NCBI GenBank assembly: GCA_030645475.1
Contig: JAUSMA010000071.1
Span: 1 to 64,000, forward strand
DNA length: 64,000 bases
From: Nitrospirota bacterium
Lineage (GTDB): Bacteria; Nitrospirota; Nitrospiria; Nitrospirales; Nitrospiraceae
Direction of reading: 5' to 3'
The notes below the pieces were generated by a model. The model was not told the DNA's origin. It made no database searches and saw only the letters and a list, made by a program, of their open reading frames with translations. Made by a program: the position numbers and the translations under genes. This document shows, one piece after another, positions 44,018 to 60,214 of this stretch (within the stretch, counting starts at the first letter, position 1; each line of letters starts with the position of its first letter).

Positions 44018-45916
44018 TCATTCGACGGTCTCGAGTATGAGTTTCTTCCAACGGGGCAGGCGGGCGTCGAGAGTAAAGAAATCTTGCTTCTTTCGCCTCA
44101 AACATGAGGTGGCTGCAGCAGAAATAAGAGCACTAGCCAAATCCTCTGGGGTACTGGCGAACGAAACGCCCTCTCGTCCACGCAGGGGACTCAGGTTGAA
44201 GGTATTCGGGTCCCGGACCGAAATCACAGGTATGCCGGCACAATAGGCCTCGACGGCGGCCGAGGTCATCTCACTGGTATACGCCACATCACATTCGGAT
44301 AGCAGTGTAACCATAGGGGCCATCGTCACCGTCATGCGAACACCGGGATAGTCCTCTGGCTTGATCGGACAGGCTGGGTGAGGCTTTACCGTAATGACCG
44401 TCCCCGCTGGCAAGGAGGGCACTGCCAGCTTCAGCAAACACATTTGTACCTGTGTACTGCTCAACAGGTAATCGCCAAGCACAAGCAGGCGAAGTACTCC
44501 CTTCATCGGCGTTGAATCGGTTCTTGGCGCGGCACTGAACCCATCAAGATACAGATAGCGCAGGGCCTCTACCTCATTCAATTCATCCGCCGGATAACCA
44601 CCGGCAAGATAAGCCTGCATGGCAGCGGCTCCATTGAGCGCGACCTGATCTGGCAACGGCATGGGGTGATCGGCCTGTCGCTTGTAACTCCTCGGGTCGA
44701 AAAAATACCGTAAGTCCCAGAAACGTACAGTGGAATGGGGGCATCCAACAAGCTGTCCCTGACCCGACGCCGTCCATGCCTGTCTCAAGCCACATTCCCA
44801 ACCTTGATTTTCCTGAAGATACACCCCGATCCGCTGCCTGGGCAAAGACTTCATTGCAGACTCAAACAAGTTCAGGTTCAGGCAATTACTGATAGCGGTT
44901 GGGCCAACCATCGATTGCCGCCAATCATCTGCAAGCAAAGGCCAAAGCGCAAGCCCCCCGCTGGTCGTTACAGAAACCGGTTTCGGCAACTGCCTGCAAG
45001 CCCAGGCAATCTTGAACCAATCCCGGAGCGTCTTCAAGACAACGCGTACCGTCAAAAATGCATCAAGAGTGATATGGACCTGCGCGCCTAATGCCGCTTT
45101 GTTGAATTCGCGAATAGTGGACGCCGCTTTACCGGCACTAGGCAGTACACTATCCTTCACAAACAGATGCAGCCAGTTGGTTTTGCAGCCTTCACGCTGT
45201 AGGGTATCTGGGAGATGCGCCCAATACCGGCTCTCGTATCGTCCCTCTGTTACGGCACTCGGCGCCAAATTAAACAGGTAGGAGAAAAAGGTCACCTGTC
45301 CTTCCGTCTGCTGCCATCCCTTAAGACCGACACCCCGTAAAGGCCAACGAATAACCACGTAACGAACCAACCAAGCCCAAGCCTGCAGAGCAAGCGGCAG
45401 AGAATTGTATATACGTCGCATCCACGACAACTGCGCGACTGGCTTCGGCAGATATTGCCACGTGAATGCCACACCAGCCTTTGCACACCACAATCGCATA
45501 CACTCGGCCAGAGGTTGATTGGCGCTCGCAAGTGTAACGCGGCCCAGGGCTCGATCAGTCGCCCAATCGTCAAAAGTCATCATACGAATGGCATCATCAA
45601 TCTCTGGAGACCCTCCGTAGTTGCACTTTCCCGAAAGCAAAGTCATCCACCAGTAACTGAACCCGGGGCGTAACTCCAGATGATCGAGCAGTCGCCTGCC
45701 ACTGATTGATGTTTCTCCTAGCTCATAAATCCAAGCCAGAAACCTACTTCGAAGAACCTCCGCATTGGCTTCGACCAGCTTTGGGATTGAGGAGGCATGT
45801 GGCGTAGCGGCATCGCCGAAACTTCGCCAAAGCACTATCATCCAATCACCAACTGGCGGTGCCCCTTGACCATCCCACACAACTACGCTAGACAAGCTAT
45901 CACCGATCTTCTGCAA
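44018..45916 (-). CDS. Large surface-carbohydrate biosynthesis protein (TIGR04326-like)
   Basis: A 632-residue cytoplasmic protein that resembles the TIGR04326-type surface-carbohydrate family from memory. Seen: ATPHASSIPKLVEANAEVLRSRF, LAPSAVTEGRYESRYWAHLP, GVYLQENQGWECGLRQAW, GCPHSTVRFWDLRYF, and a C-terminal part with TVITVKPHPACPIKPEDYPG and DVAYTSEMTSAAVEAYCAGIPVI. The last two look like the nucleotide-binding half of capsule/GT-B-type transferases, so a glycosyltransferase role is likely. Start uncertain: the ORF begins at TTG 45916, and no ATG exists near. The gap upstream holds a cytidylyltransferase remnant. Confidence 0.75.
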   Translation of the reverse strand: MQKIGDSLSSVVVWDGQGAPPVGDWMIVLWRSFGDAATPHASSIPKLVEANAEVLRSRFLAWIYELGETSISGRRLLDHLELRPGFSYWWMTLLSGKCNYGGSPEIDDAIRMMTFDDWATDRALGRVTLASANQPLAECMRLWCAKAGVAFTWQYLPKPVAQLSWMRRIYNSLPLALQAWAWLVRYVVIRWPLRGVGLKGWQQTEGQVTFFSYLFNLAPSAVTEGRYESRYWAHLPDTLQREGCKTNWLHLFVKDSVLPSAGKAASTIREFNKAALGAQVHITLDAFLTVRVVLKTLRDWFKIAWACRQLPKPVSVTTSGGLALWPLLADDWRQSMVGPTAISNCLNLNLFESAMKSLPRQRIGVYLQENQGWECGLRQAWTASGQGQLVGCPHSTVRFWDLRYFFDPRSYKRQADHPMPLPDQVALNGAAAMQAYLAGGYPADELNEVEALRYLYLDGFSAAPRTDSTPMKGVLRLLVLGDYLLSSTQVQMCLLKLAVPSLPAGTVITVKPHPACPIKPEDYPGVRMTVTMAPMVTLLSECDVAYTSEMTSAAVEAYCAGIPVISVRDPNTFNLSPLRGREGVSFASTPEDLASALISAAATSCLRRKKQDFFTLDARLPRWKKLILETVE

Positions 45917-45943
45917 GCTGTACTCAGGCCTTCAAGGCCTGCA

Positions 45944-46180
45944 TCAAGCATTCGACCTTCTTGAAGTCATTTTGAATTTTGCCAATTTGCAGCGAACCGG
46001 AATTGGCTCGCGTGAGAAATACATTGCATCAGAGTGAAGACCGCTCACGACCTGGGTGCAGTTGCGGGCTTCAACTTCAGCAGCATCCTTGATCTCGATT
46101 GCCAGATTAACCACTTGAATAGCCGAATTGGCCAGCATCGCTTGTAGTGCTGCCCGGTAATAGTGACCACGCTCTAGTCT
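45944..46180 (-). pseudogene. Remnant of a KdsB/SpsF-like cytidylyltransferase
   Basis: Read on the minus strand from about 46180, an open frame gives RLERGHYYRAALQAMLANSA, then IKDAAEVEARNCTQVV and DAMYFSREPIP before running into unrelated sequence and a stop at 45944. YFSR(x)PIP is a hallmark of Kdo cytidylyltransferases and their relatives, whose full length is about 230-250 residues. Only ~60-70 family-like codons remain, and both ends are missing: the 5' part overlaps the SDR gene end and the 3' part is lost after PIP. No start codon with a Shine-Dalgarno sequence is apparent. Deletion debris of an activation gene is the simplest reading. Confidence 0.7.
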
Positions 46181-46926
46181 CCACCGGCAACGGTAACAAT
46201 TTCACCAGTTATGTAGCTGGCATCTATTGAGAGGAGGAAACCCATGGCGGCTGCGACTTCCTCCGGTTTTCCAGGTCGATGCATCGGAATCTTTTGAATC
46301 CGATCGGCGATTTCCTGAGCTGAGCGACCAGATTGCTGCTGCGGGCTATGGACGAACCCGGACCGCACTCCATTAATACATAGGCCTGACTTTGCAACAT
46401 CCCTCGAAAGACCACGCATTGACGTCTCCAAGGCTCCTTTAGCTGCAGCGTAATGGAGGCTACGCGGCGAACCACCGTACTTAGCCGCGATCGAGCTGAG
46501 ATACACTATGCGGCCTTCACCACGTTCCTGCATCTCGGGAATTACCAATCTGGTCAAGACGAACGGGACTACACAGTGCTCAAATACTGCCTGTTGCCAG
46601 TCCAACACTGAGGTTTCTTGCCATGCCTGCCAAGGAACACGCCCTCCGCACAAAGCCATACCATGAAGGGTGCCCATTTCAGAACGAACGCGGTCCAGCA
46701 ACTGAACACACGACTCTTCGGAATCGAGCGGCGATTGAAGACAAACACCACGGGCACCACCCTGCTCAAGGCTTTCTTGCAGATGTTCTACCGCCAACCG
46801 GTTTTTACAATACTGCAATCCAATCACCACACCAGGCCTTATCAGTCTACGAACAAGAGCAGAGCCGATAGTCCCCGACGCACCGACGACGAGATACGTT
46901 TCTGGATTTGCAGTTTGCTGAGTCAC
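46174..46926 (-). CDS. Short-chain dehydrogenase/reductase
   Basis: A 250-residue classical SDR with VVGASGTIGSALVRRLI (NAD(P) site), YLSSIAAKYGGSPRSLHYAAAKGALE (Ser, Tyr and Lys in YAAAK), RSGFVHSP and the C-terminal ITGEIVTVAGGD. It resembles 3-oxoacyl-ACP reductases, but in this setting a sugar or sugar-acid substrate is more likely. GTG start at 46926, 5 bp after the radical SAM gene. It lies against the cytidylyltransferase remnant. Confidence 0.88.
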   Translation of the reverse strand: MTQQTANPETYLVVGASGTIGSALVRRLIRPGVVIGLQYCKNRLAVEHLQESLEQGGARGVCLQSPLDSEESCVQLLDRVRSEMGTLHGMALCGGRVPWQAWQETSVLDWQQAVFEHCVVPFVLTRLVIPEMQERGEGRIVYLSSIAAKYGGSPRSLHYAAAKGALETSMRGLSRDVAKSGLCINGVRSGFVHSPQQQSGRSAQEIADRIQKIPMHRPGKPEEVAAAMGFLLSIDASYITGEIVTVAGGD

Positions 46927-46931
46927 AGTGG

Positions 46932-48095
46932 TCAGACTACGGCACAGCGGTTACAAGGACCAACCCCGTCGCGCCTGCCAGTAAGATGCGCATCACGCAA
47001 ACTGGAATAGCCAGAAGAACGCCACATCGCCGATAACGTATGCCCTGGGAATGTTCCTACCGACAACGTTGACTTATAGTCAACATCGCAGGGGTTTACC
47101 TTTCCATCCCACCAGACGAACATCCGGCGCCACAAGTCTGAACAGGGCTCGCCAAGATCCGTAATCGAGCGGCTGTAAACATTCTCCCAAGGATTGTATT
47201 GAACAAATGCAACCTGATCCACCAGACTACCCCATACACGCTGCATGGAGTCGAGGCTTTGGTCGTCAGAGAATTGCACCCCTGATACTCGAGTTATGAC
47301 AGGCAGACTCGAGTACTGGGTTTGGCGTATCTTCTGGAATCGTTCGATATTACTGAGCACCGTCGCAAGATTGCCGTTCACCCGCAACTTGCTATACAGC
47401 GGTTCCTCTGCGGCATCAGCAGAAAACACCACCGTCTTCACACCACCTGAAAGTATCGCGTGACATTTGGCCTCATCCAACAAAGAGGCATTCGTATTAA
47501 GTTTCAGGTTAAGAAACTTCCCCTGCGTGTAGCTCAACATTGGAATAATATCCTTGCAGAGCAACGGCTCACCACGTGATGCGAGCGAAATAAATTCGAC
47601 GTTGCCCTGAGCCTGATCAACAATCTGCCGAAACAACTCGAAGGACATCTGTCCCATATATCCCGCAGATTTTGCCGTAAACGTCGGATCGGTTTCAAAA
47701 CAGAACACACAGCGAAAATTGCAAACCGACGCGGGCTCAATCTGTAAATATGGCGGGTACTCGTCGAGCACTTTCAGCTGAGGAAAGACTTCATACCGGT
47801 AACGATGCACCAAATACCGCGGCAGCACGATATCGTCGTACGTTGCGATCTCTTGCACAACATTCGGAGCCAGAGAAAACCTCGGCTCACGTTCTGGCCC
47901 GGCCGGATCAAATAAATCCTTATACACCTGCGCCAAAATTTTCCTGTGCGCGTCTGAAAGACCATTGGCAAGATCATCTCTGCCCCTCAAGGCCGCAACT
48001 CGAATCATGACCGCCGCAAGCGCATTGTCATGGCCATGTCGGATCTCGACAAAACTGTTGTGCTTCTTATAGATGGGACCGCTTCCCGTTTCCAT
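46932..48095 (-). CDS. Radical SAM protein with SPASM-like C-terminus
   Basis: A 387-residue radical SAM enzyme. The cluster motif is CNFRCVFC (CxxxCxxC) after PPYLQIEPASV. Further signs are LASRGEPLLCKDIIPML and LNLKLNTNASLLDEAKCHAIL, and C-terminal cysteines in PCSDLWRRMFVWWDGKVNPC and GPCNRCAVV suggest an auxiliary iron-sulfur cluster (SPASM-like). Such proteins in glycan loci may remodel sugars or modify peptides; the substrate is unknown. The start at 48095 (METGSGPIYKK) fits the gap after the cytidylyltransferase gene. Confidence 0.87.
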   Translation of the reverse strand: METGSGPIYKKHNSFVEIRHGHDNALAAVMIRVAALRGRDDLANGLSDAHRKILAQVYKDLFDPAGPEREPRFSLAPNVVQEIATYDDIVLPRYLVHRYRYEVFPQLKVLDEYPPYLQIEPASVCNFRCVFCFETDPTFTAKSAGYMGQMSFELFRQIVDQAQGNVEFISLASRGEPLLCKDIIPMLSYTQGKFLNLKLNTNASLLDEAKCHAILSGGVKTVVFSADAAEEPLYSKLRVNGNLATVLSNIERFQKIRQTQYSSLPVITRVSGVQFSDDQSLDSMQRVWGSLVDQVAFVQYNPWENVYSRSITDLGEPCSDLWRRMFVWWDGKVNPCDVDYKSTLSVGTFPGHTLSAMWRSSGYSSLRDAHLTGRRDGVGPCNRCAVV

Positions 48096-48103
48096 GGCTA
48101 GAT

Positions 48104-48859
48104 TTACGCCTCCTGAATGCCGTGTTTCCGAAGCCAAAACTCTACCATCGGCACTTGCCATTCATAGTCCACATCGCATCCTCCCCATGATGGGATAGGT
48201 GCAATCCGTTGCCCCATCCACTTCTGCGGTAACAGGCCTTCACTCATCTGCTCCAAGCACTTTGGCCGAACTACTGAAACCGACATATCGGCAAAATGCA
48301 CATCCCCCTGCGAATCCCGATCACAGTTGAGCGTACGAGGATCTCCGAAAGTTTCGAACGGCACAAAAGGCCTTAGGCAACCGTCCGAATGGAGTTTCCG
48401 AGCCCGCAAGGGACTCCACATGTTGTACACCGATGTCGTCACGGCTGAATCAAAATGTGCATCCCTACGGAGAGTCTCAATCCCTTGGTCCATCAATTGA
48501 CTCGTGATCGTTGCGGCGTTGGCGAACAATAGGATCATCAACTCTACCTCTAGTCCCTGCGACGCCAACCTTCTTTGTATTTCCCGATAGCCGTGCACGA
48601 ACACGTCTTCGCCTAAGGCCTGCTTCGTCGCCAACTCAGCTGGCCGCTCGATGAGCTCTGCGCCATATCCCTTGGCGATGTCCATGATCTCAGGAGAATC
48701 CGTGGAGACAAAGATCCGTTCCACATAGCGCGAACCTTTCGCTGCCAGGAGCGGATACGCTGCAAGAGGCCGCCCGAGAACCGGATATACGTTCTTCCCG
48801 GGAAACCCAATACTGCCTTTCCGTCCGATCATTAATGCGCAAACCACGGATTTACTCAT
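48104..48859 (-). CDS. Acylneuraminate cytidylyltransferase-like protein
   Basis: A 251-residue nucleotidyltransferase of the NeuA family. Seen: VCALMIGRKGSIGFPGKNVYPVLG (the expected Arg/Lys-rich CTP-binding loop), RIFVSTDSPEIMDIAKGYGAELIERP and MNLLFANA-type NAAT region (ILLFANAATITSQLMD). It probably makes a CMP-sugar acid, giving the locus a second activation step beside the gene at 53550. Overlaps the HAD gene by ATGA and is followed by the radical SAM gene. Confidence 0.86.
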   Translation of the reverse strand: MSKSVVCALMIGRKGSIGFPGKNVYPVLGRPLAAYPLLAAKGSRYVERIFVSTDSPEIMDIAKGYGAELIERPAELATKQALGEDVFVHGYREIQRRLASQGLEVELMILLFANAATITSQLMDQGIETLRRDAHFDSAVTTSVYNMWSPLRARKLHSDGCLRPFVPFETFGDPRTLNCDRDSQGDVHFADMSVSVVRPKCLEQMSEGLLPQKWMGQRIAPIPSWGGCDVDYEWQVPMVEFWLRKHGIQEA

Positions 48860-49542
48860 ACCCCTCCCAATCCCTCAGAATATTCGAGGCCATCAAAACT
48901 CGCCCCTTGGTATCGGCTTTGCAAATCATGAGTTAACGGGGTCCGCCGAAGCAGAAAGGGCACCTGATTTGCGGAAGCGGCATTAAAGTCCGCCTCTGAA
49001 TCTCCGACCACTAACACTTGGTCACGAGCATACTGAAATCGCCGCAGCACATCCCCTATTGCCGAAGCTTTTGGTCTCGGAGCGCCGTGCACCTCCCGGA
49101 AACAGTGGCCGATCTCCAGCACGTTCAATATTTGCAGAATTTCTTCCTGGGGCGTTGCAGTCAGGAGCACAAAGTACTGCCGGGAATACTGCTCTTGCAA
49201 ATACTCACGCACACCCGGGACCCATGCCGCATCGATAACAGACTGCCACACCTGTCGCGCAAATCGGTCACAGAATTCATTGACCTGCTCTACTGTCCCT
49301 GGCTCGCCGGCCCAGCGAAGATAGATGGGAATCTTTTCAAAGCGCGAAACACCTGCATGGGCTTCATGATGTTCCCGCACACGATCGGCAAGATCCCTGC
49401 CGTAGGACAAAAATAGTTGCTCGAACGCAACAGACTTGGCGATCACAGAGTCCTTGATGACCCCGTCGAAATCCCAAAACACCAGCCGTTTGCTGCGGAT
49501 TAGGTTCCTGGCGTTTGCGCTCTGACCCAAATCTGATTCCAA
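48856..49542 (-). CDS. HAD-family hydrolase
   Basis: A 228-residue HAD phosphatase of the phosphoglycolate/beta-phosphoglucomutase type: FWDFDGVIKDSVIAKSVAFEQ (motif I with a cap insert), FVLLTATPQEEILQILNVL (motif II), GDVLRRFQYARDQVLVVGDSEADFNAA (motif III/IV). It may remove phosphate from a sugar-acid phosphate before CMP activation by the overlapping cytidylyltransferase gene, as KdsC-like or NeuA-coupled phosphatases do. The ORF starts at TTG 49542 and overlaps the FkbM gene by 43 nt; a GTG at about codon 21 is an alternative. Confidence 0.85.
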   Translation of the reverse strand: MESDLGQSANARNLIRSKRLVFWDFDGVIKDSVIAKSVAFEQLFLSYGRDLADRVREHHEAHAGVSRFEKIPIYLRWAGEPGTVEQVNEFCDRFARQVWQSVIDAAWVPGVREYLQEQYSRQYFVLLTATPQEEILQILNVLEIGHCFREVHGAPRPKASAIGDVLRRFQYARDQVLVVGDSEADFNAASANQVPFLLRRTPLTHDLQSRYQGASFDGLEYSEGLGGV

Positions 49543-50366
49543 ACCTTTCCCCCGCCAAATGATTCTGCACTGTCGAACAGCGCCGAATGGCGCTTCTCTT
49601 TCAACACAAGCCCCGCCTCAAGAAGCAATTTCTGACACTGCTCCGCTTGTTCATGAAAGCTGTCATTGACCTCGATCAATACACCATCCACTTTCTTCAA
49701 TACAGCCATCGCTCCTCGCAATACGAGATGCTCAATCCCGTCCACATCAATTTTGATGAAGTTCGGTTGTGGCACTCGTAGAAGCTGCACAGCATCCGAA
49801 CCGGAAACGCCTATGGTCTGGAACTTGAACACCGGTTGCATCCTCTGACCATCCCAGCCGTAGTCTTGTCCGAAGGTCGATAACGCGCCTCCCCAATCAG
49901 TCGTTGTCATATTCAATGTGTTTATTGCCATCGAATCGAAAAGCGGTAAGGGAACGATGACAATTTTACCCGTGAGTCCATTGAGACAAATATTCCTGGC
50001 AAGCAATTCCAAGTTAAAAACAGAAGGTTCGAACGCAAACACCTGACAGTCCCTAGCCTTGGCAGAGTAACAAGAATATAGACCTACATTTGCGCCAATA
50101 TCCCATACGACTGCCCCACGGGGGATCGCATCGATCCATTCGAGCGTTTCAGGCTCTTTAGTCGAGAAGCTCTCCACACGAAAACGGTTCAGATTATTGG
50201 GCACGGCAAAGGTAAGTGTCGTCTTCTGATGGGTTAAAGTCTGCGTTGCCTGCATTGCCGTATTCACGATGATTTCAAATGCATAGGCACCCGGCCGTGT
50301 CTTCCTAAGCCAACGACTACTTGTGCTAAGGGATGCTTTAATAAACTTCTTGCTTGTACTGAACAT
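49500..50366 (-). CDS. FkbM-family methyltransferase
   Basis: A 288-residue SAM-dependent methyltransferase of the FkbM type: PRGAVVWDIGANVGLYSCYSAK (motif I), VFAFEPSVFNLELLARN, NFIKIDVDGIEHLVLRGA (the diagnostic KIDVDGxE) and VDGVLIEVNDSF. It likely O-methylates a sugar or sugar substituent. Encoded right before the HAD/cytidylyltransferase pair. Confidence 0.92.
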   Translation of the reverse strand: MFSTSKKFIKASLSTSSRWLRKTRPGAYAFEIIVNTAMQATQTLTHQKTTLTFAVPNNLNRFRVESFSTKEPETLEWIDAIPRGAVVWDIGANVGLYSCYSAKARDCQVFAFEPSVFNLELLARNICLNGLTGKIVIVPLPLFDSMAINTLNMTTTDWGGALSTFGQDYGWDGQRMQPVFKFQTIGVSGSDAVQLLRVPQPNFIKIDVDGIEHLVLRGAMAVLKKVDGVLIEVNDSFHEQAEQCQKLLLEAGLVLKEKRHSALFDSAESFGGGKVWNQIWVRAQTPGT

Positions 50367-50419: not shown

Positions 50420-51310
50420 CTACAGCTGCGAGCGATCAGCGGACTTTCTACTACGCACATCTTCGATCAATTGGATCAACCCCTGCCCTAGGTCCACATG
50501 CATCGGTGGTACATATTTCCGCCCAAGTTTTGGCTGGTAGGCATAGGGTGTACGCACATAGTGACCGGGCTGATCGTTGGCAACAAACTCAACGGGCTTG
50601 TTCAAGCCTAATATCTCAGCCAGCATTTCAAGCAGATCGAGCACTCGCATGGGTTCCTGCCCAGTAAGGATGACACTTTGGTTGCGAAACTCCTCGCCGA
50701 GTGCCGCGACACTGGCACGCGCCGCATCCTCCACATGAATATACTCGCGCAGTGCATCGGCACTGCCCTCGTATCGTACGATGCCGGTCTCCAATGCATT
50801 CTTCACAATGCGATACAACCCGTTGCTCAGATCAGCGCGCGGGCCATAGAGCGAGCCATATCGCAGAATCGTGTAGTCGAGTCCGTACGCTCGCTGGTAT
50901 TCGTCTACATACTGCTCGGCCGCCTGTTTACTGCAACGATAAAAGCCTCCTTGACGGCTATAGACATACACCGTACTGGCATAGACAAAACGCTTTACCC
51001 CATGTCGCCGACAGGCTTCCATAACGTACGTGTTACCGAGGACGTTTATTCGCACTGTTTCAACGGGCTTATCGAGGGCTTCGTTCAGATCCGCCAACGC
51101 GGCAAAGTTATAAACAACGTCAGAACCAGCAACAGCCGCCGCAACGCCGTCGGCGTCCATGAGATCACCGATCACCATTTCCTGATCTGGCCGCAACCAC
51201 GAGGACGGATTACGATCGTAAATGCGGACACCATGCCCCTCGTCACTCAGCGCATCGGCGACATGGCTTCCCAGAAATCCTGAACCACCGATCACACAGA
51301 CTTTTCTCAT
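50420..51310 (-). CDS. NAD-dependent epimerase/dehydratase
   Basis: A 296-residue extended SDR: RKVCVIGGSGFLGSHVADAL, VVYNFAALADLNEALDKP, FVYASTVYVYSRQGGFYRCSKQAAEQY (YRCSK supplies the catalytic pair), LRYGSLYGPRADLSNG. It acts on a nucleotide sugar, probably in the nonulosonate or neutral-sugar branch. The start at 51310 follows the previous stop by 1 nt; an upstream in-frame ATG inside the previous gene is less likely. Confidence 0.9.
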   Translation of the reverse strand: MRKVCVIGGSGFLGSHVADALSDEGHGVRIYDRNPSSWLRPDQEMVIGDLMDADGVAAAVAGSDVVYNFAALADLNEALDKPVETVRINVLGNTYVMEACRRHGVKRFVYASTVYVYSRQGGFYRCSKQAAEQYVDEYQRAYGLDYTILRYGSLYGPRADLSNGLYRIVKNALETGIVRYEGSADALREYIHVEDAARASVAALGEEFRNQSVILTGQEPMRVLDLLEMLAEILGLNKPVEFVANDQPGHYVRTPYAYQPKLGRKYVPPMHVDLGQGLIQLIEDVRSRKSADRSQL

Positions 51311-51311
51311 A

Positions 51312-52295
51312 TCACAAGCCCTGCCGCTGGACATCATATTCACCTGGCGGGACCAAACCCATCAGGGGTTGACCGGTGAGGAATCGCACAGCCTCCTCCG
51401 TCGCCTCAATCTCCATACGTATTCTACAGTCTATCGACATGGACCCCATATGCGATGTCAACAAGCATCGCTCACTACTCCCCAACTCGCCCAGATAGGG
51501 CTCCTGCTCAAAAACATCGATTGCCGCGCCTGATAAATGCCCTTCTGACAAAACTCTCACTAGATCGTGCTCGTTGATAATACCGCCGCGTGAGGTATTA
51601 ATCACCGCCGCATCGGCCTTCATACTCTTGAGCTGCTCGTAGCGAATCATATTTTTTGTCTGCCCCGTGAGCGGTAAATGCAAACTGATGACATCGGCCT
51701 CTCGGAAAATGGCTTCTTTATCCATCCACTCAAGCTTGAGGGCCGGAGCAACATTTAAAACCGGGTGTAAGTCATTGACCAGCACCCTCGGCGTCCCGAA
51801 AGCTGCCAAACGCCGCAATACACGCCCACCAATGCGACCGACACCAAGGATGCCAATGGTGATTTCTGGAATGCGGCGTCCAAAATGGCGATGCCACTCA
51901 CCGCGATGCATTTGTGAATTCGCGACATGAACGTGGCGCAATAAGGTCAGCATGAGGCCGATCGTAAATTCCGCCACCGCAGGCGCCGGTGCGTCAGGAG
52001 TATAACTCACCTGTATCCCGCGTCGCTCCGCTGCTAACAGATCAACATTATCCAGGCCGATGCCCACCCGGGAAATCAGCCTCAAGTTCTTGGCGCGGCT
52101 CATGACCATGTCGGTAATCGGCTCAGTCCCTGCGATGAGCACATCAAAGTCTGCCACCATATCAGCTAACTCGTCTTCTTTCAGCTTCCGGCCAATGGGA
52201 TTGATGACATAGTGAATCCCTGCGCTTTCTAATAGCTCGATAGGTAACCGGTTTTTGTCTGCAAAGGGAACTGTCGTGATCAGGGCCTTAGGCAT
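51312..52295 (-). CDS. D-2-hydroxyacid dehydrogenase, phosphoglycerate-dehydrogenase-like
   Basis: 327 residues. NAD site TIGILGVGRIGGRVLRRL; catalytic Arg in ISRVGIGLDNVD, Glu in VINTSRGGIINEHDL and His in LLTSHMGSM. It converts a 2-keto acid to a D-2-hydroxy acid or the reverse. GGGGGAG lies about 5 nt before the ATG at 52295, which is preferred over 52322. One of three such genes in the locus, between an epimerase and a putative polysaccharide protein. Confidence 0.9.
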   Translation of the reverse strand: MPKALITTVPFADKNRLPIELLESAGIHYVINPIGRKLKEDELADMVADFDVLIAGTEPITDMVMSRAKNLRLISRVGIGLDNVDLLAAERRGIQVSYTPDAPAPAVAEFTIGLMLTLLRHVHVANSQMHRGEWHRHFGRRIPEITIGILGVGRIGGRVLRRLAAFGTPRVLVNDLHPVLNVAPALKLEWMDKEAIFREADVISLHLPLTGQTKNMIRYEQLKSMKADAAVINTSRGGIINEHDLVRVLSEGHLSGAAIDVFEQEPYLGELGSSERCLLTSHMGSMSIDCRIRMEIEATEEAVRFLTGQPLMGLVPPGEYDVQRQGL

Positions 52296-52318
52296 GGGCT
52301 CCCCCTTAAATCTCACCC

Positions 52319-53548
52319 TCATACATTGCGGTCAGGCGTTGGGGCAATCTTTCGCCCAACCATTAAATCTTCGGCCCCGAGTTTCAACGCGTCTGAAAAT
52401 ATTTCCCAAAGCGGCAACTCCAAAGAGCCTTGAGATTTAATATACTTATCTTTAAACGAAGCATAGTTGTGGACGGAGACCTGCGTCCATGCCTTCAGGT
52501 CGATATCGCCCAAACGATAGTTGTCCACGTTGAGCAGGGGGGCAGCAAGACTGGCCTGAAAGCCCTCGATATATGGCTGATACCTGGATACCTGAAGTTC
52601 GTCCGTGGTGAGAAAGACCACTGGTTTCCCCCACAGAACCGAGAACGAAAGCGCTGTGGAATAATGGGTAAATACGAGGGAGGCACCTTGTATTAGTCGT
52701 GCTGTTTCACCGGCGACAAATTTCCTGCCACCAAAAGGAGATGTTTCGTTGGTGTAGGGAGTCTTCGGATGGGCTGCAATCACAACCGGAATCCCCGTTC
52801 GCTCTTCAAACTCAGTAAAGAACTGCTGGAGAGCAGGGAAATATTTCAGTGCACTGACATATGCGGGGGTTCCAGAAATCAAGAAATCATGGCGCTCAAC
52901 GAGGTTTTGGTCGAGAAACACCGCGTAAGGAGACACCGGCTCAGGCGAGCAGTCACGCAGAGCCAAAAATCTGTCGTAATCGAAGCTGTGCGCCCAAATT
53001 TGATACGGCGTTTGCGCGTCGGGACTACCTAAGGTATGAGTCCCCGAAAGAACCGTAATTTCAGCCATATCACTCGTCAGCCCCAGCATCGGATAAAGAG
53101 CACACCTGAGTTTTCGATATCTGCCAGATATCATGTCGCGCAAGCGCTTAATTAGCGCTCGAGGCCGTTGCTTCCATTGGCGCATCATGGGTGCAGGCAT
53201 CACACCCGCAAAAACACGTGAGCGGAGAATGCCAAAACTGCGAAGGGTTTCTCGTATACATCTATGCTGTCCCCTACCAGGTAACAGGTAGTCAATGGCG
53301 ACAGCCTGATTGCACAAAGGAGCGATAATTCGTTTTATTTCATCGATCGTATGTACCGGAACATACTCAGGGCATTCGTATCTATGGTGTCCGAATGTCG
53401 CCCACAATTCAGACCTGAGGAGTGGGGTACAGTCGAGAATATGGACCTGAAAGTGACGGGAAAGAATGTCTATGCCAAAACGCTCATGGTCACGCTTTCG
53501 AAAAGGGGTCTCAGTCAAGACAAGAATGTGTCGAATGCTTCCAGCCAT
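52319..53548 (-). CDS. Putative glycan biosynthesis protein, GT-B-like
   Basis: A 409-residue protein not matched to a named family with confidence. Seen: ILVLTETPFRKRDHERFGIDILSRHF at the N-terminus, and a C-terminal domain reading IPVVIAAHPKTPYTNE, LIQGASLVFTHYSTALSFSVLWGKPVVFLT and YIEGFQASL. The S-x-x-F-SVLWGKPV pattern resembles donor-binding halves of GT-B and capsule-type transferases. A surface glycan transferase or assembly role is an inference from the fold-like cues and neighbours. Confidence 0.65.
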   Translation of the reverse strand: MAGSIRHILVLTETPFRKRDHERFGIDILSRHFQVHILDCTPLLRSELWATFGHHRYECPEYVPVHTIDEIKRIIAPLCNQAVAIDYLLPGRGQHRCIRETLRSFGILRSRVFAGVMPAPMMRQWKQRPRALIKRLRDMISGRYRKLRCALYPMLGLTSDMAEITVLSGTHTLGSPDAQTPYQIWAHSFDYDRFLALRDCSPEPVSPYAVFLDQNLVERHDFLISGTPAYVSALKYFPALQQFFTEFEERTGIPVVIAAHPKTPYTNETSPFGGRKFVAGETARLIQGASLVFTHYSTALSFSVLWGKPVVFLTTDELQVSRYQPYIEGFQASLAAPLLNVDNYRLGDIDLKAWTQVSVHNYASFKDKYIKSQGSLELPLWEIFSDALKLGAEDLMVGRKIAPTPDRNV

Positions 53549-53549
53549 A

Positions 53550-54236
53550 TCAATATGAACGTTTCCCTAACAAGAACTCCAAGAACAGGAAATCGAACTC
53601 GGTATCGATGTCCAAAGACTCTTCTCTTGACATGAGATAGCCGACGGTTTGACTGGCGACAAATCGTCTTTCCTTTTTGAGCCACGGGATTTCAGCAACA
53701 TAGACGACGCCGTTCAGAGCATACAGCACCGGCAAATCCTGGCGACGACCAGAAACACTGACATTCATCAACCGGCTGAGATGGTGTTGCTCGTCGAGCT
53801 GAAAAACACTGAACGGTGAAGTTTCGGCCTCGCAGATTGAAACGCAAGCCGGCGCCGTACAGTTCAAGCAAAATTCCATTGCTCCGTCAATATGTGCGGC
53901 TGTACGCAGCGGAGAGGTTGGTTGCAGCAAAACGACATAGTCAAAACCCTGGTAGCTTTCGATGGCGTGCAGGACCGGTTCGGTGCCTGGGGTTTCATCG
54001 CTGGCAAGATGTGCTGGGCGCTGGAGGAGACTCACACCATAGCTAGCCGCGACCTTCAGGATTTCGTCGTCCTCACTACTGACCACAATTTCGTCAAGAT
54101 ACCTGCTGTGCTTTGCCGCCTCAATGGTGTACCAGAGGAGAGGCTTTCCAGAGACGACCCGAAGGTTCTTACGGGGCACGCCTTTGGAGCCTCCGCGTGC
54201 AGGGATAACGGCCAGAACACGTTTTCCTTGGATCAC
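53550..54236 (-). CDS. neuA: Acylneuraminate/legionaminate cytidylyltransferase
   Basis: A 228-residue enzyme that activates a nonulosonate with CTP. It has VLAVIPARGGSKGVPRKNLR, the full NeuA signature, then IVVSSEDDEILKVAASYG, VLLQPTSPLRTAAHIDGAM and FLDIDTE-like SLDIDTEFDF. GTG at 54236 overlaps the preceding stop (GTGA). It follows ptmE-like and legI-like genes, so CMP-legionaminate synthetase (LegF/PtmB type) is the most likely role; sialate cannot be excluded. Confidence 0.9.
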   Translation of the reverse strand: MIQGKRVLAVIPARGGSKGVPRKNLRVVSGKPLLWYTIEAAKHSRYLDEIVVSSEDDEILKVAASYGVSLLQRPAHLASDETPGTEPVLHAIESYQGFDYVVLLQPTSPLRTAAHIDGAMEFCLNCTAPACVSICEAETSPFSVFQLDEQHHLSRLMNVSVSGRRQDLPVLYALNGVVYVAEIPWLKKERRFVASQTVGYLMSREESLDIDTEFDFLFLEFLLGKRSY

Positions 54237-55276
54237 TCGAAAAGCTCCGGGTAGTCGATCAGGGCCTGTTGCAAGTCCTCGCGGCGACCAATGTCGAGCC
54301 AATAGTCTTCAACATGGTGACACCGTACGGATTGGCCATCCTCAATTAGGCTCGCAAAATGTTCCGGCATATCCAAAAATGTCTGTTTGGGGATACGTGC
54401 TACTGCAGGTGGGGAAAGCACGTAGATGCCGGCGTTGACGATGACGCGATGGATGGGTTTTTCCTCCAGAGAGCCAATGCGATCATCCTTGGCGTGCACC
54501 ACACCGAAAGGAATGCGATATTCGTGCTCACGCACAGCCATTGTGGCCACGGCACTTGTCTCAATATGTCGGTCAAGCAACTGCGAGTAATCTACTTTGG
54601 TTAGCAAATCGGCATTGCTCACGAGAATAGGTTTTTCGGGAGGAGGCAGCAGGCTTAGCGCGCCAGCGGTGCCCATGCGCATTGTTTCGCGCAGGTAACG
54701 GATGTTGGCACCGAATTTGGCTCCATTGCCGAAATACGCCTCAATCTGGTCGGCGTGATAATTGACCGCCAGCCAGATGTTGCGGTAACCCTGTTCGGCA
54801 AAACGGTCGATGATGGTTTCAAGCAACGGTTTATTTCCTACTGGCAGCATTGGCTTCGGGGTGTTGCGTGTGAGCTCCTTGAGCCGAGTTCCGAGCCCGC
54901 CAGCCATGATGATCACCCAGTTTTCGTGGGGTTCAGCCTGCAGCAAGTCATCAATGCGCTTTAGGCCGACAACCTTGCCGTCATCATCGACTAGTGGAAG
55001 CTGGTGAAGCATATGCTGTCGCATCTTGGACAGCATGACTTCGCGCGAATCGCCGAGGGTTGTCGTAGTTGGGGTGCGGCACATGCACCGCTCAACGGGG
55101 TCTGTGAGCGTCATCCCCGCCAGTAACGCGCGGCGAACGTCACCGTCGGAGAGCGTGCCGAGAAGATACCGCTCCTGGTCGACAACGAGCGCCAATTGTG
55201 TTGCGGCAGAGTTAATACAAGCCAGCGCTTCCTGGATTGAGGCATGTGGGCCGATCAGGGCTTGCTCCCATTTCAT
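54233..55276 (-). CDS. ptmE: CBS-domain nucleotidyltransferase, PtmE/LegE-like
   Basis: 347 residues. A pair of CBS domains (about 1-115; LLGTLSDGDVRRALLAG, LPLVDDDGKVVGLKRIDDLL) precedes a nucleotidyltransferase domain (IIMAGGLGTRLKELTRNTPKPML, ILVSNADLL, VNAGIYVLSP). This two-part architecture is that of PtmE, the glucosamine-1-phosphate guanylyltransferase of the legionaminic acid route. Its position between legI and neuA agrees with that assignment. Overlaps legI by 4 nt. Confidence 0.85.
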   Translation of the reverse strand: MKWEQALIGPHASIQEALACINSAATQLALVVDQERYLLGTLSDGDVRRALLAGMTLTDPVERCMCRTPTTTTLGDSREVMLSKMRQHMLHQLPLVDDDGKVVGLKRIDDLLQAEPHENWVIIMAGGLGTRLKELTRNTPKPMLPVGNKPLLETIIDRFAEQGYRNIWLAVNYHADQIEAYFGNGAKFGANIRYLRETMRMGTAGALSLLPPPEKPILVSNADLLTKVDYSQLLDRHIETSAVATMAVREHEYRIPFGVVHAKDDRIGSLEEKPIHRVIVNAGIYVLSPPAVARIPKQTFLDMPEHFASLIEDGQSVRCHHVEDYWLDIGRREDLQQALIDYPELFE

Positions 55277-56292
55277 AAGACAATTCCTTCGATGTCGCCA
55301 AGGTGGATGACGCGATCTGCTGCCAGATCCCTGCGCGCAGTGGTGCCAATCACGCGGTCGCGCAGCAATGGCGATAGGCCGGTTCCTGGACGCTTGAAGA
55401 CCAAATCCGCCTTTTCGATGCGTGCTCCGGCAGGAATGTCGCGAGCCGTAACAATGCTCTTACGCGCCATGCGCCGAATTCCTTCTTCTGTTGCCGAAAA
55501 GGTCTTTTGAGCATTACCCAGGGCAGCTTCGACGCGTCGGATGGAAGCGACCATGCTGTAGAATTCCTCAATGGTGGCAGATGCATTATGGTCCGGCCCT
55601 GGCATGTTCTTGTCGAGGGTGACGTGTTTTTCGATGACCTGTGCTCCAAGGGCCACGGCGGCCAGGCAGGATTCAGCACCGAGGCTGTGATCAGAAAAAC
55701 CGACTTTGCAGCGGAACTGCTTAGCCAGTTCTGGCATGGCCAGCAGATTCATATCAGCGTGAGGGGACGGGTAGTTGCTAACACAGTGAAGAAGGGTGAT
55801 GTCTTTCAGTCCTTCGCTGGTAAGGACCACCAAGGAGCTGGCAATTTCGTCAAAATTCGCCATGCCAGTGGAGAGGATGACCGGCTTTTGGCGATGCGCC
55901 ATATATTCGAGCATGTCGATGGTCAGTAGTTCACCCGACCCCACCTTGAAGCGCGGAACATTGAGCGCCTGATCGAGAAACTCAAGCGAGCCCAGATCGA
56001 AAGCCGTGCAGAGATAAAGGATGTCCATCTTTACACAGGCCTGCTGCAACTGCCGGTGAGCATCCTGCGGGAGTTGGAGCCGGCGGGACATTTCAATGAC
56101 CGAGCCGGCGCCATCGTTCTGTTTCTGATACTCGGCCTTGAAGGCGTCGGCCGAGTACACGGCCTCAGGATCCGCCAACTGAAATTTAATTGCATCTGCG
56201 CCGCTGAGCGCAAGGCGTTTTACCATCTCCAGCGCAATCTCGAGCGAACCATTATGGTTGGGGCCGATTTCCGCAATCACAAATGCAGTCAT
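55273..56292 (-). CDS. legI: N-acetylneuraminate/legionaminate synthase
   Basis: Condenses phosphoenolpyruvate with a 6-carbon N-acyl sugar to form a nonulosonate. 339 residues: FVIAEIGPNHNGSLEIALEMV, IKFQLADPEAVYS, FKVGSGELLTIDMLEYMA and VGFSDHSLGAESCLAA in the TIM barrel, then a SAF (antifreeze-like) domain at about 275-335 (RKSIVTARDIPAGARIEKADLVFKRP). The start at 56292 overlaps the ATP-grasp stop (ATGA). NeuB and LegI share these motifs; the ptmE and legC neighbours favour legionaminate. Confidence 0.92.
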   Translation of the reverse strand: MTAFVIAEIGPNHNGSLEIALEMVKRLALSGADAIKFQLADPEAVYSADAFKAEYQKQNDGAGSVIEMSRRLQLPQDAHRQLQQACVKMDILYLCTAFDLGSLEFLDQALNVPRFKVGSGELLTIDMLEYMAHRQKPVILSTGMANFDEIASSLVVLTSEGLKDITLLHCVSNYPSPHADMNLLAMPELAKQFRCKVGFSDHSLGAESCLAAVALGAQVIEKHVTLDKNMPGPDHNASATIEEFYSMVASIRRVEAALGNAQKTFSATEEGIRRMARKSIVTARDIPAGARIEKADLVFKRPGTGLSPLLRDRVIGTTARRDLAADRVIHLGDIEGIVL

Positions 56293-57239
56293 GGCGTATC
56301 GCACCAATGGAGAGAAATGCCTTTCATCACGGTAATCAGTCGTGGAGCAGGAGGCAAACAGGGTTTCTCGCCTCGCACCATGTCAAGAATTGCCTTAAGG
56401 TAGTTAAATCCCGCTAGATGCGTGGCGGGGTAACCACCGCCAAATCTGGGGTTGAAATCGATGCAGTAGATCGCACCGTCCTTCGCACGCAAGACATCGC
56501 AATCGAGATTGCCGATGTGGCCAAACGCCTTCGAGATGCGTCGCCCCAAGTCTTCCAGCGCCTCATCGCGAATAATCTGGGCTTTGTCGGTCTCCCCAGC
56601 CCGCATCAGCAATTTACGTTTGACGCAGACGGCAACGAACTCGCCGTCAAGTGCGTTCAGGACGTCTAGACCGAACTCGTCGCCTGCAATAAACGGCTGC
56701 AGCATGTCGCGGCCCGAGAGGAAGCCAGCCAGCTCCTCTTTGCGTTCAACCTGCCTCAGGCCGCTCGACCCGCTACCCAGTATGTGTTTCTGGATCACCG
56801 GGAAAGGTCCAACATAGGGAGCGGCATCAAACCAAGATTCCGGCGTTGGCAAACCGATGCTACGGCAAAACTTGAAAGTCAGATTCTTGTCGTTACAACG
56901 ACCTATCACTGCCGGTGCCGATACAATCGCCGTGCATCCGAGCAGGTCAAACTTCTCGCGATGCTGCGCCAAAATCATCGGGTCCAGATCGGACAACGGG
57001 AAAATAACTTCGAACCTTTCCCGCCTGACTAGGTCAAGCAACGCAGCCAGGTACGCCTGCGGATTTTCAAGCACCGGCGGCAGCAGATGCGTGCGCTCAG
57101 TTGGCACCACCTGCATCGCCGCGCTCAGCAAACTACAATCAGACACATGAATGTGCACCGGATAGCCCGAATGCTCGAGATCCAGTCCAAACTGGACCAG
57201 ATAGGTACGCCGTCCCGCATTCGTAAACAACACTTTCAT
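56289..57239 (-). CDS. ATP-grasp ligase-like protein
   Basis: A 316-residue ATP-grasp protein: MKVLFTNAGRRTYLVQFGLDLE, VIFPLSDLDPMILAQHRE, an ATP-binding lid GPFPVIQKHILGSGSSGL, MLQPFIAGDEFGLDVL and the metal-site YCIDFNPRFGGGYPATHL. Such enzymes join a carboxylate to an amine via an acyl phosphate. In this setting it could attach a modified acid to the amino group of a nonulosonate precursor. It lies between legI and a 224-bp gap. Confidence 0.9.
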   Translation of the reverse strand: MKVLFTNAGRRTYLVQFGLDLEHSGYPVHIHVSDCSLLSAAMQVVPTERTHLLPPVLENPQAYLAALLDLVRRERFEVIFPLSDLDPMILAQHREKFDLLGCTAIVSAPAVIGRCNDKNLTFKFCRSIGLPTPESWFDAAPYVGPFPVIQKHILGSGSSGLRQVERKEELAGFLSGRDMLQPFIAGDEFGLDVLNALDGEFVAVCVKRKLLMRAGETDKAQIIRDEALEDLGRRISKAFGHIGNLDCDVLRAKDGAIYCIDFNPRFGGGYPATHLAGFNYLKAILDMVRGEKPCLPPAPRLITVMKGISLHWCDTP

Positions 57240-57463: not shown

Positions 57464-58429
57464 CTAATATCCGGCGCTCAAATCAACGATATTCTTCAAC
57501 GGCAATCCTTTGGCAAACGCCACCAGATTTTCCATCACGTCTAGCAGGTTCGGAGAACTCCCGCGCACGGTACCGGCGCGATGCGGTGAAACCAGTGCAT
57601 TGTCAAACCGGGTGAATTCCACCAGGCCCGCCATGCCATCCACGCCGTCATAGGGTACGTCCAGCGCTGCACCGCGAATACGCCGGTGCTCCAACGCCTC
57701 GACCAATGCTACGCGATCGATCACTTCGGCACGGCCGACATTGACGATATACGGCGCGGGGGTTCTCAAACCAAGCTCCGTCACGCCGATCATGCCGCGC
57801 GTACTCTCTGTCAGCGGCACCGAAACGATCACGGCATCGGCCAGCGTCATAATCTCTGTCAAATTGGACATCCTGACTCCGGAACGCGGCTGACGCGCAC
57901 ACACCAGAAGCCTGACGTCAAATCCGGTCAGGAAGCGGGCAACGGTCTGATTGATAGCACCATACCCGATTAGGCCTATCGTCGCACCGCTCAACGCGTC
58001 GCTCTGATAGGCATCGTCCTCAGAATTACCTTGAGGGCGATACCAAACACCCTTGCGCAACATCCTGTCGTGAAGCGCCACCTTGCGCATTAAGGCAAGC
58101 AGCATTGCAATCGCGTGCTCTGCGACTTGCGGGGCATGTGACAGGGAATTGCAGACCGTAATACCGTGCGCCGCCAAAGCCAGCTTGTCCAGCTTCTCTA
58201 GCCCCGCGCCGGGGGTTTGTAGCATTTGCAACCGCATGGCCTCCGCAAGGACCGCAGGTGTTATCGCGGAGCCCAACGCTACGTCCGCGTCTTTCGCGAG
58301 CGAGATCAACGCCATCTCGTCGAATGTCCGGGGCTCAAGAATCTCGTAAAACGGCGCCAGTCCTTCAAACAGCCAATCCCGGTTGGACCGGGAGAACTGG
58401 TGCAACAGCAGCAGATGCGGCTTCGGCAT
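57464..58429 (-). CDS. D-2-hydroxyacid dehydrogenase (divergent)
   Basis: A 321-residue NAD-dependent D-2-hydroxyacid dehydrogenase with TIGLIGYGAINQTVARFL (cofactor site) and His in ALVSPHRAGT. The usual Arg region TPGAGLEKLD and the Glu/Gly region VNVGRAEVIDRVALVEAL are degenerate compared with the RG-x-x-V-D norm. The start MPKPHLLLLHQFSRSNRDWL is noteworthy: a closely similar but broken N-terminus lies at 60215-60355. Part of the inserted module between legG and legI. Confidence 0.86.
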   Translation of the reverse strand: MPKPHLLLLHQFSRSNRDWLFEGLAPFYEILEPRTFDEMALISLAKDADVALGSAITPAVLAEAMRLQMLQTPGAGLEKLDKLALAAHGITVCNSLSHAPQVAEHAIAMLLALMRKVALHDRMLRKGVWYRPQGNSEDDAYQSDALSGATIGLIGYGAINQTVARFLTGFDVRLLVCARQPRSGVRMSNLTEIMTLADAVIVSVPLTESTRGMIGVTELGLRTPAPYIVNVGRAEVIDRVALVEALEHRRIRGAALDVPYDGVDGMAGLVEFTRFDNALVSPHRAGTVRGSSPNLLDVMENLVAFAKGLPLKNIVDLSAGY

Positions 58430-59165: not shown

Positions 59166-60110
59166 TTAAAATCCAGCGACTTTATCCACAATATTGATCA
59201 ATGGCAGGCCAGCGATGAAACGGCGAATATTCGTTGTAATTAATTCATAATTGCGTTCGCGAAAGCGGTCAGAGCGGCCCGCCAGATGCGGGGTCACAAT
59301 GACGCGTTCAAATCCGCGAATCCGATGATCGGCCGGCAAGGGTTCTGGATTGGTGACATCCAGGCCAACGCCGGCAAACTTACCTGCATCCAGCGCTTCC
59401 ACCAACGCACCGAGATCGACCGTACCACCGCGCGAGACATTCACCAGATAGGCGTCCTGCTTCATGGCATTGAATTGCTCGCGTCCTAGCATATTACGGG
59501 ACCGCGGGGTAAGCGGCGCCACCATGATGACGACGTCGGCATTGGGCAAAGCCACCATAAGTTGATCGCCGAAATATGTCTTGCGCACGCTGCTGACCAA
59601 CGGCATGCCTGTTTCAGTAACAACATCAACCGTCATGCCGAAGGCCGACAATCTTTCCGCCACTAACATGCCGATACCGCCGAAGCCAATGACAACGGCC
59701 GTTTTGCCTCGCAGCTCAATCGGCGCGGGAAGCCTGTCATTCGTCACGCCTTTCAGGATGAGACCAATGCGCCGACTTAGGCAAAGCGTGAGCGCCACCG
59801 CATGTTCCGCCACTTCCGGTCCCTGAATAATCTTCCCGTTGGTCAGCGTGATCGACGAGGTGGCCAGATTGGGAAATAGGTAGAAATCAATCCCTGCGCC
59901 TGGCGCATGCGCCCAACGCACGCTTTTGTTGGTCGCCAGAAAATGCTCGGTAAACACCTTGTCGAAGGGGGCCCGGCTCATGCCGATGAGCGCATCGGCT
60001 TCGGCGATATCGACCTCGGCACCGTCCGTGCGCACAAAATCGACGGTCGGGAACAGTGTCCGAAATGCGCTGAACTGATCGTCGTATGCGCCCGCAAGAA
60101 GTATTTTCAT
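59166..60110 (-). CDS. D-2-hydroxyacid dehydrogenase
   Basis: 314 residues. NAD site TAVVIGFGGIGMLVAERL, catalytic Arg/Gly region IDFYLFPN-type loop (APGAGIDFYLF), Glu region LVNVSRGGTVDLGALVEAL and His in VIVTPHLAGRS. All three catalytic landmarks are better kept here than in the paralog at 57464. The ATG at 60110 gives MKILLAGAYDDQ. It follows a 247-bp stretch that contains a broken relative of such a gene. Confidence 0.9.
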   Translation of the reverse strand: MKILLAGAYDDQFSAFRTLFPTVDFVRTDGAEVDIAEADALIGMSRAPFDKVFTEHFLATNKSVRWAHAPGAGIDFYLFPNLATSSITLTNGKIIQGPEVAEHAVALTLCLSRRIGLILKGVTNDRLPAPIELRGKTAVVIGFGGIGMLVAERLSAFGMTVDVVTETGMPLVSSVRKTYFGDQLMVALPNADVVIMVAPLTPRSRNMLGREQFNAMKQDAYLVNVSRGGTVDLGALVEALDAGKFAGVGLDVTNPEPLPADHRIRGFERVIVTPHLAGRSDRFRERNYELITTNIRRFIAGLPLINIVDKVAGF

Positions 60111-60214
60111 CAATACATGCCTAGCCTGAAGGTTATAAAGAAGCGGCGATGCCGAAGACACAAGCGTCCATGCGCGTCATCCTGACAGCCAAGAATTTTT
60201 GTAGCCCTACCATA

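Follow-up and report, generated by a model that had tools for sequence, protein, structure and literature searches.

Why should a radical S-adenosylmethionine (SAM) enzyme stand among genes that activate a sugar acid for the bacterial surface? The question is raised by a stretch of 64,000 nucleotides from a Nitrospirota bacterium (positions 1 to 64,000 of contig JAUSMA010000071.1, assembly GCA_030645475.1), which we call the window and which is part of a 190-kb contig in a genome of 3.75 Mb that is 99.9% complete. The original prediction, made from the letters of the window, had described five consecutive, co-oriented genes as a module that could make an unusual cytidine monophosphate (CMP)-activated sugar acid: a haloacid dehalogenase (HAD) phosphatase, a NeuA-like cytidylyltransferase (here NeuA2), a radical SAM-SPASM protein, a short-chain dehydrogenase/reductase (SDR) and a TIGR04326-like transferase. 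Our preferred reading, held with modest confidence, is that these genes belong to a cassette which has spread horizontally and whose product is a modified, CMP-activated sugar acid destined for surface polysaccharide, and we infer that its radical SAM enzyme is a BtrN-type dehydrogenase that would oxidise a carbinol to a ketone.

A scan of one genome per species (84,980 species) returned 67 loci with a relative of the radical SAM enzyme, and the 37 closest (L021-L056 and L060) form the core set to which the counts below refer; the remaining 30 (L057-L087 minus L060), of lower identity or coverage, are uncounted among the 37. A NeuA2 gene is present in 36 of the 37 core loci and is co-oriented with the radical SAM gene in 36 of 36, the distance between the two being less than 300 bp in 32 core loci, and both gene orders occur. 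Because the pair recurs in this way it is not a chance association, and the pairing, a direct observation like the gene content of the loci and its conservation, supports the notion that a radical SAM enzyme forms part of a module for CMP-activated sugar acids. Sequence extends for 5 kb on both sides in 21 of the 37 loci, and many of the others are truncated by contig ends.

Comparison of the loci also revealed that the unit extends upstream of the HAD gene, where a 2-hydroxyacid dehydrogenase, an epimerase and an FkbM-type methyltransferase belong to it; the five genes originally named are present, but the module is larger than proposed. In the window it reads:

51312-52322, minus strand: D-2-hydroxyacid dehydrogenase, phosphoglycerate-dehydrogenase-like (PF02826/PF00389)
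50420-51343, minus strand: NAD-dependent epimerase/dehydratase, an extended SDR (PF01370)
49500-50366, minus strand: FkbM-type methyltransferase (TIGR01444, above cut-off)
48856-49542, minus strand: HAD phosphatase with an intact DFDG motif (HAD_2)
48104-48859, minus strand: NeuA2, a cytidylyltransferase from a separate NeuA-like subfamily (PF02348)
46932-48095, minus strand: radical SAM/twitch enzyme, BtrN-like, 387 aa (PF04055 and PF13186)
46174-46926, minus strand: FabG-like SDR, the reductase option for the final step (PF13561/PF00106)
45995-46093, minus strand: kdsB-like relic, non-functional (similarity to the genome's KdsB)
44018-45916, minus strand: TIGR04326 surface carbohydrate biosynthesis protein, a possible transferase (TIGR04326)

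The order, strand and coordinates of the five genes first described hold, except that the TIGR04326 gene does not follow directly: a 257-bp gap separates it from the SDR and holds a broken kdsB-like fragment with stops in all three frames, 33% identical over 33 aa (E 1.4e-4) to the genome's intact KdsB homologue, which is found next to a KdsA-like gene on contig C21. The start of the radical SAM gene is placed at 48095 and not at 48161, because the alignment with relatives runs from residue 23 onward. The DFDG motif of the HAD enzyme is invariant in 19 aligned sequences, and the TIGR04326 protein scores 514 bits against a curated cut-off of 250. Around the core pair the epimerase occurs in 32 of 37 loci, the 2-hydroxyacid dehydrogenase (on the same strand) and the HAD enzyme in 18 each, the FkbM methyltransferase, an optional decoration, in 13, and a cytidine diphosphate (CDP)-glucose dehydratase in 12; TIGR04326 proper is found in three, with a distant relative in eight more, and its tie to the cassette sugar is uncertain.

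The strongest hint as to the product of the radical SAM enzyme comes from the gene beside the pair. An SDR occupies this place in 22 of 37 loci and a HisC-like aminotransferase in 9, while no cassette carries both, an exclusivity that is read directly from the loci (hypergeometric P 4e-5, assuming independent loci). Neither enzyme is present in six loci; in four of these (L030, L032, L040, L046) the contig ends less than 730 bp from the radical SAM gene, and the other two are L052, which has a different aminotransferase match 3.4 kb upstream, and L054. Extra weak SDR matches 6 to 10 kb away in L021, L029, L044 and L049 were counted as outside the cassette. Of these, L021 is a Nitrosomonadaceae locus with an aminotransferase. 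Given that two unrelated carbonyl-using enzymes replace each other at the same place, the radical SAM product would be a ketone or an aldehyde. In the radical SAM tree the SDR/aminotransferase label is not clustered: it changes at least seven times, six changes being forced by well-supported branches, and the SDR locus of the window is sister, with full support, to three aminotransferase loci. Because no residue column of the radical SAM enzyme tracks the label (P 0.9 and 0.59), both branches probably start from the same radical SAM product. For NeuA2 the columns show a marginal signal at best (P 0.04 and 0.065). Because SDR loci and aminotransferase loci have nearly the same NeuA2, this enzyme probably works ahead of the branch, in which case oxidation is likely to take place on the CMP-sugar.

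The cysteines of the radical SAM enzyme bear on the nature of its chemistry. The motif cysteines C125, C129 and C132 (C-x3-C-x2-C) are invariant in 37 of 37 aligned rows (the cut L056 was omitted from alignment and tree), as are C318, C336, C381 and C384 in the tail, where no further cysteine is invariant; the tail pattern is C-x12-G-x4-C plus C-x2-C, with the glycine conserved in at least 90% of rows. Because just four tail cysteines are invariant, the tail is, as judged from the alignment, of the one-cluster 'twitch' type, and the SPASM label given to it at the outset has to be withdrawn. Peptide-modifying SPASM enzymes have two auxiliary clusters and seven tail cysteines, a pattern that the four found here do not match. 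In a profile search of the Protein Data Bank (PDB), BtrN was the best match (E 4.6e-16), with part of the tail aligning, ahead of the sactipeptide enzyme 5wgg (2.7e-7), DesII (5e-5) and SuiB (7e-5), and BtrN also heads both the Foldseek and the VIA-align lists (Z 19.2 over 225 residues) obtained with a predicted model of mean predicted local distance difference test (pLDDT) score 85.6. The available part of PMC9012708 reports four tail cysteines for the auxiliary cluster of BtrN and proposes a four-cysteine auxiliary cluster as the electron acceptor in net oxidations. The outcome feared for the original prediction, that the protein would group with peptide-modifying enzymes and lack any link to cytidylyltransferases elsewhere, was not what we found: its best solved relative by profile is BtrN, and a cytidylyltransferase accompanies it in nearly every core locus.

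By profile and fold (predicted model, pLDDT 90.6) NeuA2 belongs with the ulosonate cytidylyltransferases, among which it is a distinct subfamily. It carries a CTP_transf_3 domain (46.8 bits, cut-off 22.6), scores 77 bits on the PseF model TIGR03584, under the curated cut-off of 205.7, and by both profile and fold has as its nearest solved structures the synthetases of CMP-sialate, CMP-pseudaminate and CMP-Kdn. Residues G12, S16, K22, N23, R72, P73, D229 and D231 are invariant in 36 rows, and R13 and G15 are conserved at 90% or more (L033 and L046, with bad or cut readings, and L052, without NeuA2, were dropped from this alignment, and the non-core L065 was included); we take these residues to be the P-loop GRxGS...KN, the RP and the DxD metal motifs. 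A block in the substrate half, YNMxSPxRAR with NCDRDxQG, is nearly unchanged and sets the subfamily apart.

Taken together, these observations suggest a scheme in which ketone formation, the order of the steps and the substrate are what we infer. The 2-hydroxyacid dehydrogenase may produce a 2-keto acid, the HAD enzyme most likely strips a phosphate ahead of NeuA2, and NeuA2 would then join the free ulosonic acid to CMP to give a CMP-ulosonate. The BtrN-like enzyme would remove hydrogen from one of the sugar's carbinol carbons, and the second electron would go to the four-cysteine auxiliary cluster, leaving a ketone in place of one hydroxyl. In the window the SDR would reduce this ketone, for a net inversion of one carbon, and in other genomes the HisC-like aminotransferase would aminate it.

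Several points weigh against this scheme. The fold search fails to separate BtrN from the peptide enzymes, and fold alone is undecisive because SuiB, DesII and SkfB lie within 1 Z of BtrN; this search also barely probes the first ~100 residues of the protein. The marginal NeuA2 signal (P 0.04) leaves room for NeuA2 to act last, one core locus (L052) has the radical SAM gene and no NeuA2, and a SAR11 genome (G351) that has NeuA2 gave no radical SAM relative at E 1e-60. The close NeuA2 of this genome (L092/L107), standing alone, adjoins a fumarase-like gene, as judged by eye, with otherwise unrelated neighbours, and is perhaps the remnant of a lost cassette.

What sugar acid enters the cassette is a separate matter, and a tentative but credible answer, which can be combined with the preferred scheme as it concerns the substrate, is that the cassette lacks its own sugar acid and does no more than remodel the NeuB-derived nonulosonic acid from the window's first module, each of two forms then having a cytidylyltransferase. 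NeuB (55273-56307) and NeuA1 (53550-54302) share a cluster with the cassette, and a NeuB match is present in 27 of the 31 carrier genomes; however, NeuB is within 10 kb in just 5 of 37 core loci, as against 18 for the 2-hydroxyacid dehydrogenase, and four carrier genomes have no NeuB match and one a weak match alone, these being small and maybe incomplete. The dehydrogenase, together with a lactonase found in five core loci (the L021 copy scoring above the 6-phosphogluconolactonase cut-off), suggests a 2-keto-aldonate as the substrate. The nearest structure to the dehydrogenase of the window is phosphoglycerate dehydrogenase, with 2-ketogluconate reductase lower in the list. Extended to a second CMP-ulosonate route that has no phosphoenolpyruvate (PEP)-condensing synthase, this idea becomes doubtful: the lactonase (in some loci) and the dehydrogenase would convert a phosphorylated aldonate to a 2-keto acid, the HAD enzyme would dephosphorylate it, NeuA2 would activate it, and the radical SAM enzyme would open an interchangeable keto/amino branch on the CMP-sugar. 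If true, bacteria from SAR11 to Nitrospirota would make surface sugar acids of a new class.

Two other sources of substrate were rejected. For a 3-deoxy-D-manno-octulosonic acid (Kdo) route, a search of 53 loci gave no KdsA relative. A phosphonate route would pass through a CMP-phosphonate intermediate as in the fosfomycin pathway, and no PEP mutase is present among the ten neighbour families annotated with Pfam; PEP mutase matches do occur in 22 of 31 carrier genomes, and that family also contains other lyases. The 18 PDB matches of NeuA2 include ulosonate cytidylyltransferases and no phosphonate enzyme.

It is also conceivable, if unlikely, that the radical SAM enzyme acts as an AprD4-type diol dehydratase, eliminating an adjacent hydroxyl to give a deoxy-keto sugar acid that is then reduced by the SDR or aminated by the aminotransferase. 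Such an enzyme also leaves a carbonyl and would explain the exclusive alternation of SDR and aminotransferase, which counts against the dehydrogenase assignment, and DesII, presumably a sugar deaminase, is among the PDB matches. On the other hand, the closest solved relative is the dehydrogenase BtrN, the AprD4 model NF033070 is absent from the best 25 of the 31 NCBIfam matches of the protein, and the four-cysteine cluster is, as noted above, the proposed acceptor of net oxidations. None of these 25 matches exceeds its cut-off. That the enzyme modifies peptides or proteins, or serves as a maturase, and stands in glycan loci by coincidence is very improbable, since a top NCBIfam match to a tungsten-enzyme maturase model (81 of 380 bits) and the fold similarity to SuiB and SkfB are set against a NeuA2 pairing that spans many phyla and an interchange of SDR and aminotransferase.

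Carriers of the cassette belong to Nitrospirota, Nitrospinota, Pseudomonadota including SAR11, Cyanobacteriota, Chlorobiota, Omnitrophota, Acidobacteriota, Bdellovibrionota, Elusimicrobiota, Myxococcota and KSB1; most of the genomes are metagenome-assembled or uncultured, and the records of Planktothricoides sp. SR001 (L027) and Chlorobium phaeovibrioides (L053) carry no such label. A search at E 1e-20 of 148 genomes from the window's own genus, family and order gave a radical SAM relative in seven, that of the window included, and just one other of the seven has a full-length relative (54% identity); because of this patchiness the cassette looks acquired rather than ancestral in the lineage of the window. 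Among 297 Pelagibacterales genomes, a sample that overlaps the core scan in some genomes, the radical SAM family occurs in 11 and NeuA2 in 9 (both at E 1e-60), and the six genomes with both have them adjacent in five cases and 5.4 kb apart in one. Genome G067 (L017) keeps the gene order dehydrogenase, radical SAM, aminotransferase, NeuA2, HAD with a radical SAM protein just 30% identical. Spread by plasmid or phage finds no support in plasmid, phage or viral records, which yielded one plasmid record with a 25% relative, no phages, and six viral contigs with relatives at 21-24%.

Further observations concern neighbouring genes. The long gene order of Planktothricoides (L027, 1-21140) is nearly that of the window: NeuB, NeuA1, a relative of 52319-53548, dehydrogenase, epimerase, HAD, NeuA2, radical SAM, SDR and CDP-glucose genes. 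In 14 of 37 loci the cassette is joined by a B12-binding radical SAM protein with BchE/HpnJ-like scores (for example L025, 12806-14344), and none was seen in the cassette of the window. The window itself contains a legionaminate-like NeuB/NeuA module (52319-57239). Just past the window (L106, 2813-7062) lie two further NeuB genes, one fused to a cytidylyltransferase-like domain, and a fusion of a family 2 glycosyltransferase (GT2) with a NeuA-like domain adjoins them; the genome has five clear NeuB matches in all, and two more radical SAM genes near NeuA/NeuB genes (L106, 9728-11137; contig C65, 135929-140382). Three D-2-hydroxyacid dehydrogenase-like genes are present in the polysaccharide cluster, of which 51312-52322 alone is tied to the cassette; 57464-58429 and 59166-60161 were judged by eye from their translations.

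Each enzyme type in the cassette is known, and it is their combination and setting that are new. The radical SAM enzyme shares with BtrN the radical SAM domain and the one-cluster tail. BtrN, the 2-deoxy-scyllo-inosamine dehydrogenase of butirosin biosynthesis, acts on a free aminocyclitol in an antibiotic pathway, in which the ketone it forms is subsequently aminated, and has no ~100-residue N-terminal extension, whereas the cassette enzyme is partnered by a cytidylyltransferase in a surface polysaccharide locus. NeuA2 resembles NeuA, PseF and KdsB in fold and family (PF02348) but differs from them in its own sequence block and in its score below the PseF cut-off. Sets of the PtmA/PtmB type, which we take to be a cytidylyltransferase and SDR pairing in a glycan locus, and those for legionaminate and pseudaminate likewise place a cytidylyltransferase beside an SDR, yet to our knowledge none of these routes uses a radical SAM enzyme; the cassette differs from them further in that NeuB is rare and KdsA was not found. 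A targeted literature search, with thin coverage of subscription journals, found no description of a NeuA2-like/radical SAM pairing; PMC5332604 and PMC6309461 are, in their available parts, unrelated to it, and BlsE (PMC3715490, likewise available in part) serves as background only.

Radical SAM sugar enzymes belong to antibiotic pathways and are not known to make the units from which bacterial surface glycans are assembled. The cassette has few genes, and the prediction is open to direct testing. If it is true, a single radical oxidation would feed two interchangeable finishing enzymes, and so add to the variety of surface sugars in bacteria of marine, soil and groundwater habitats.

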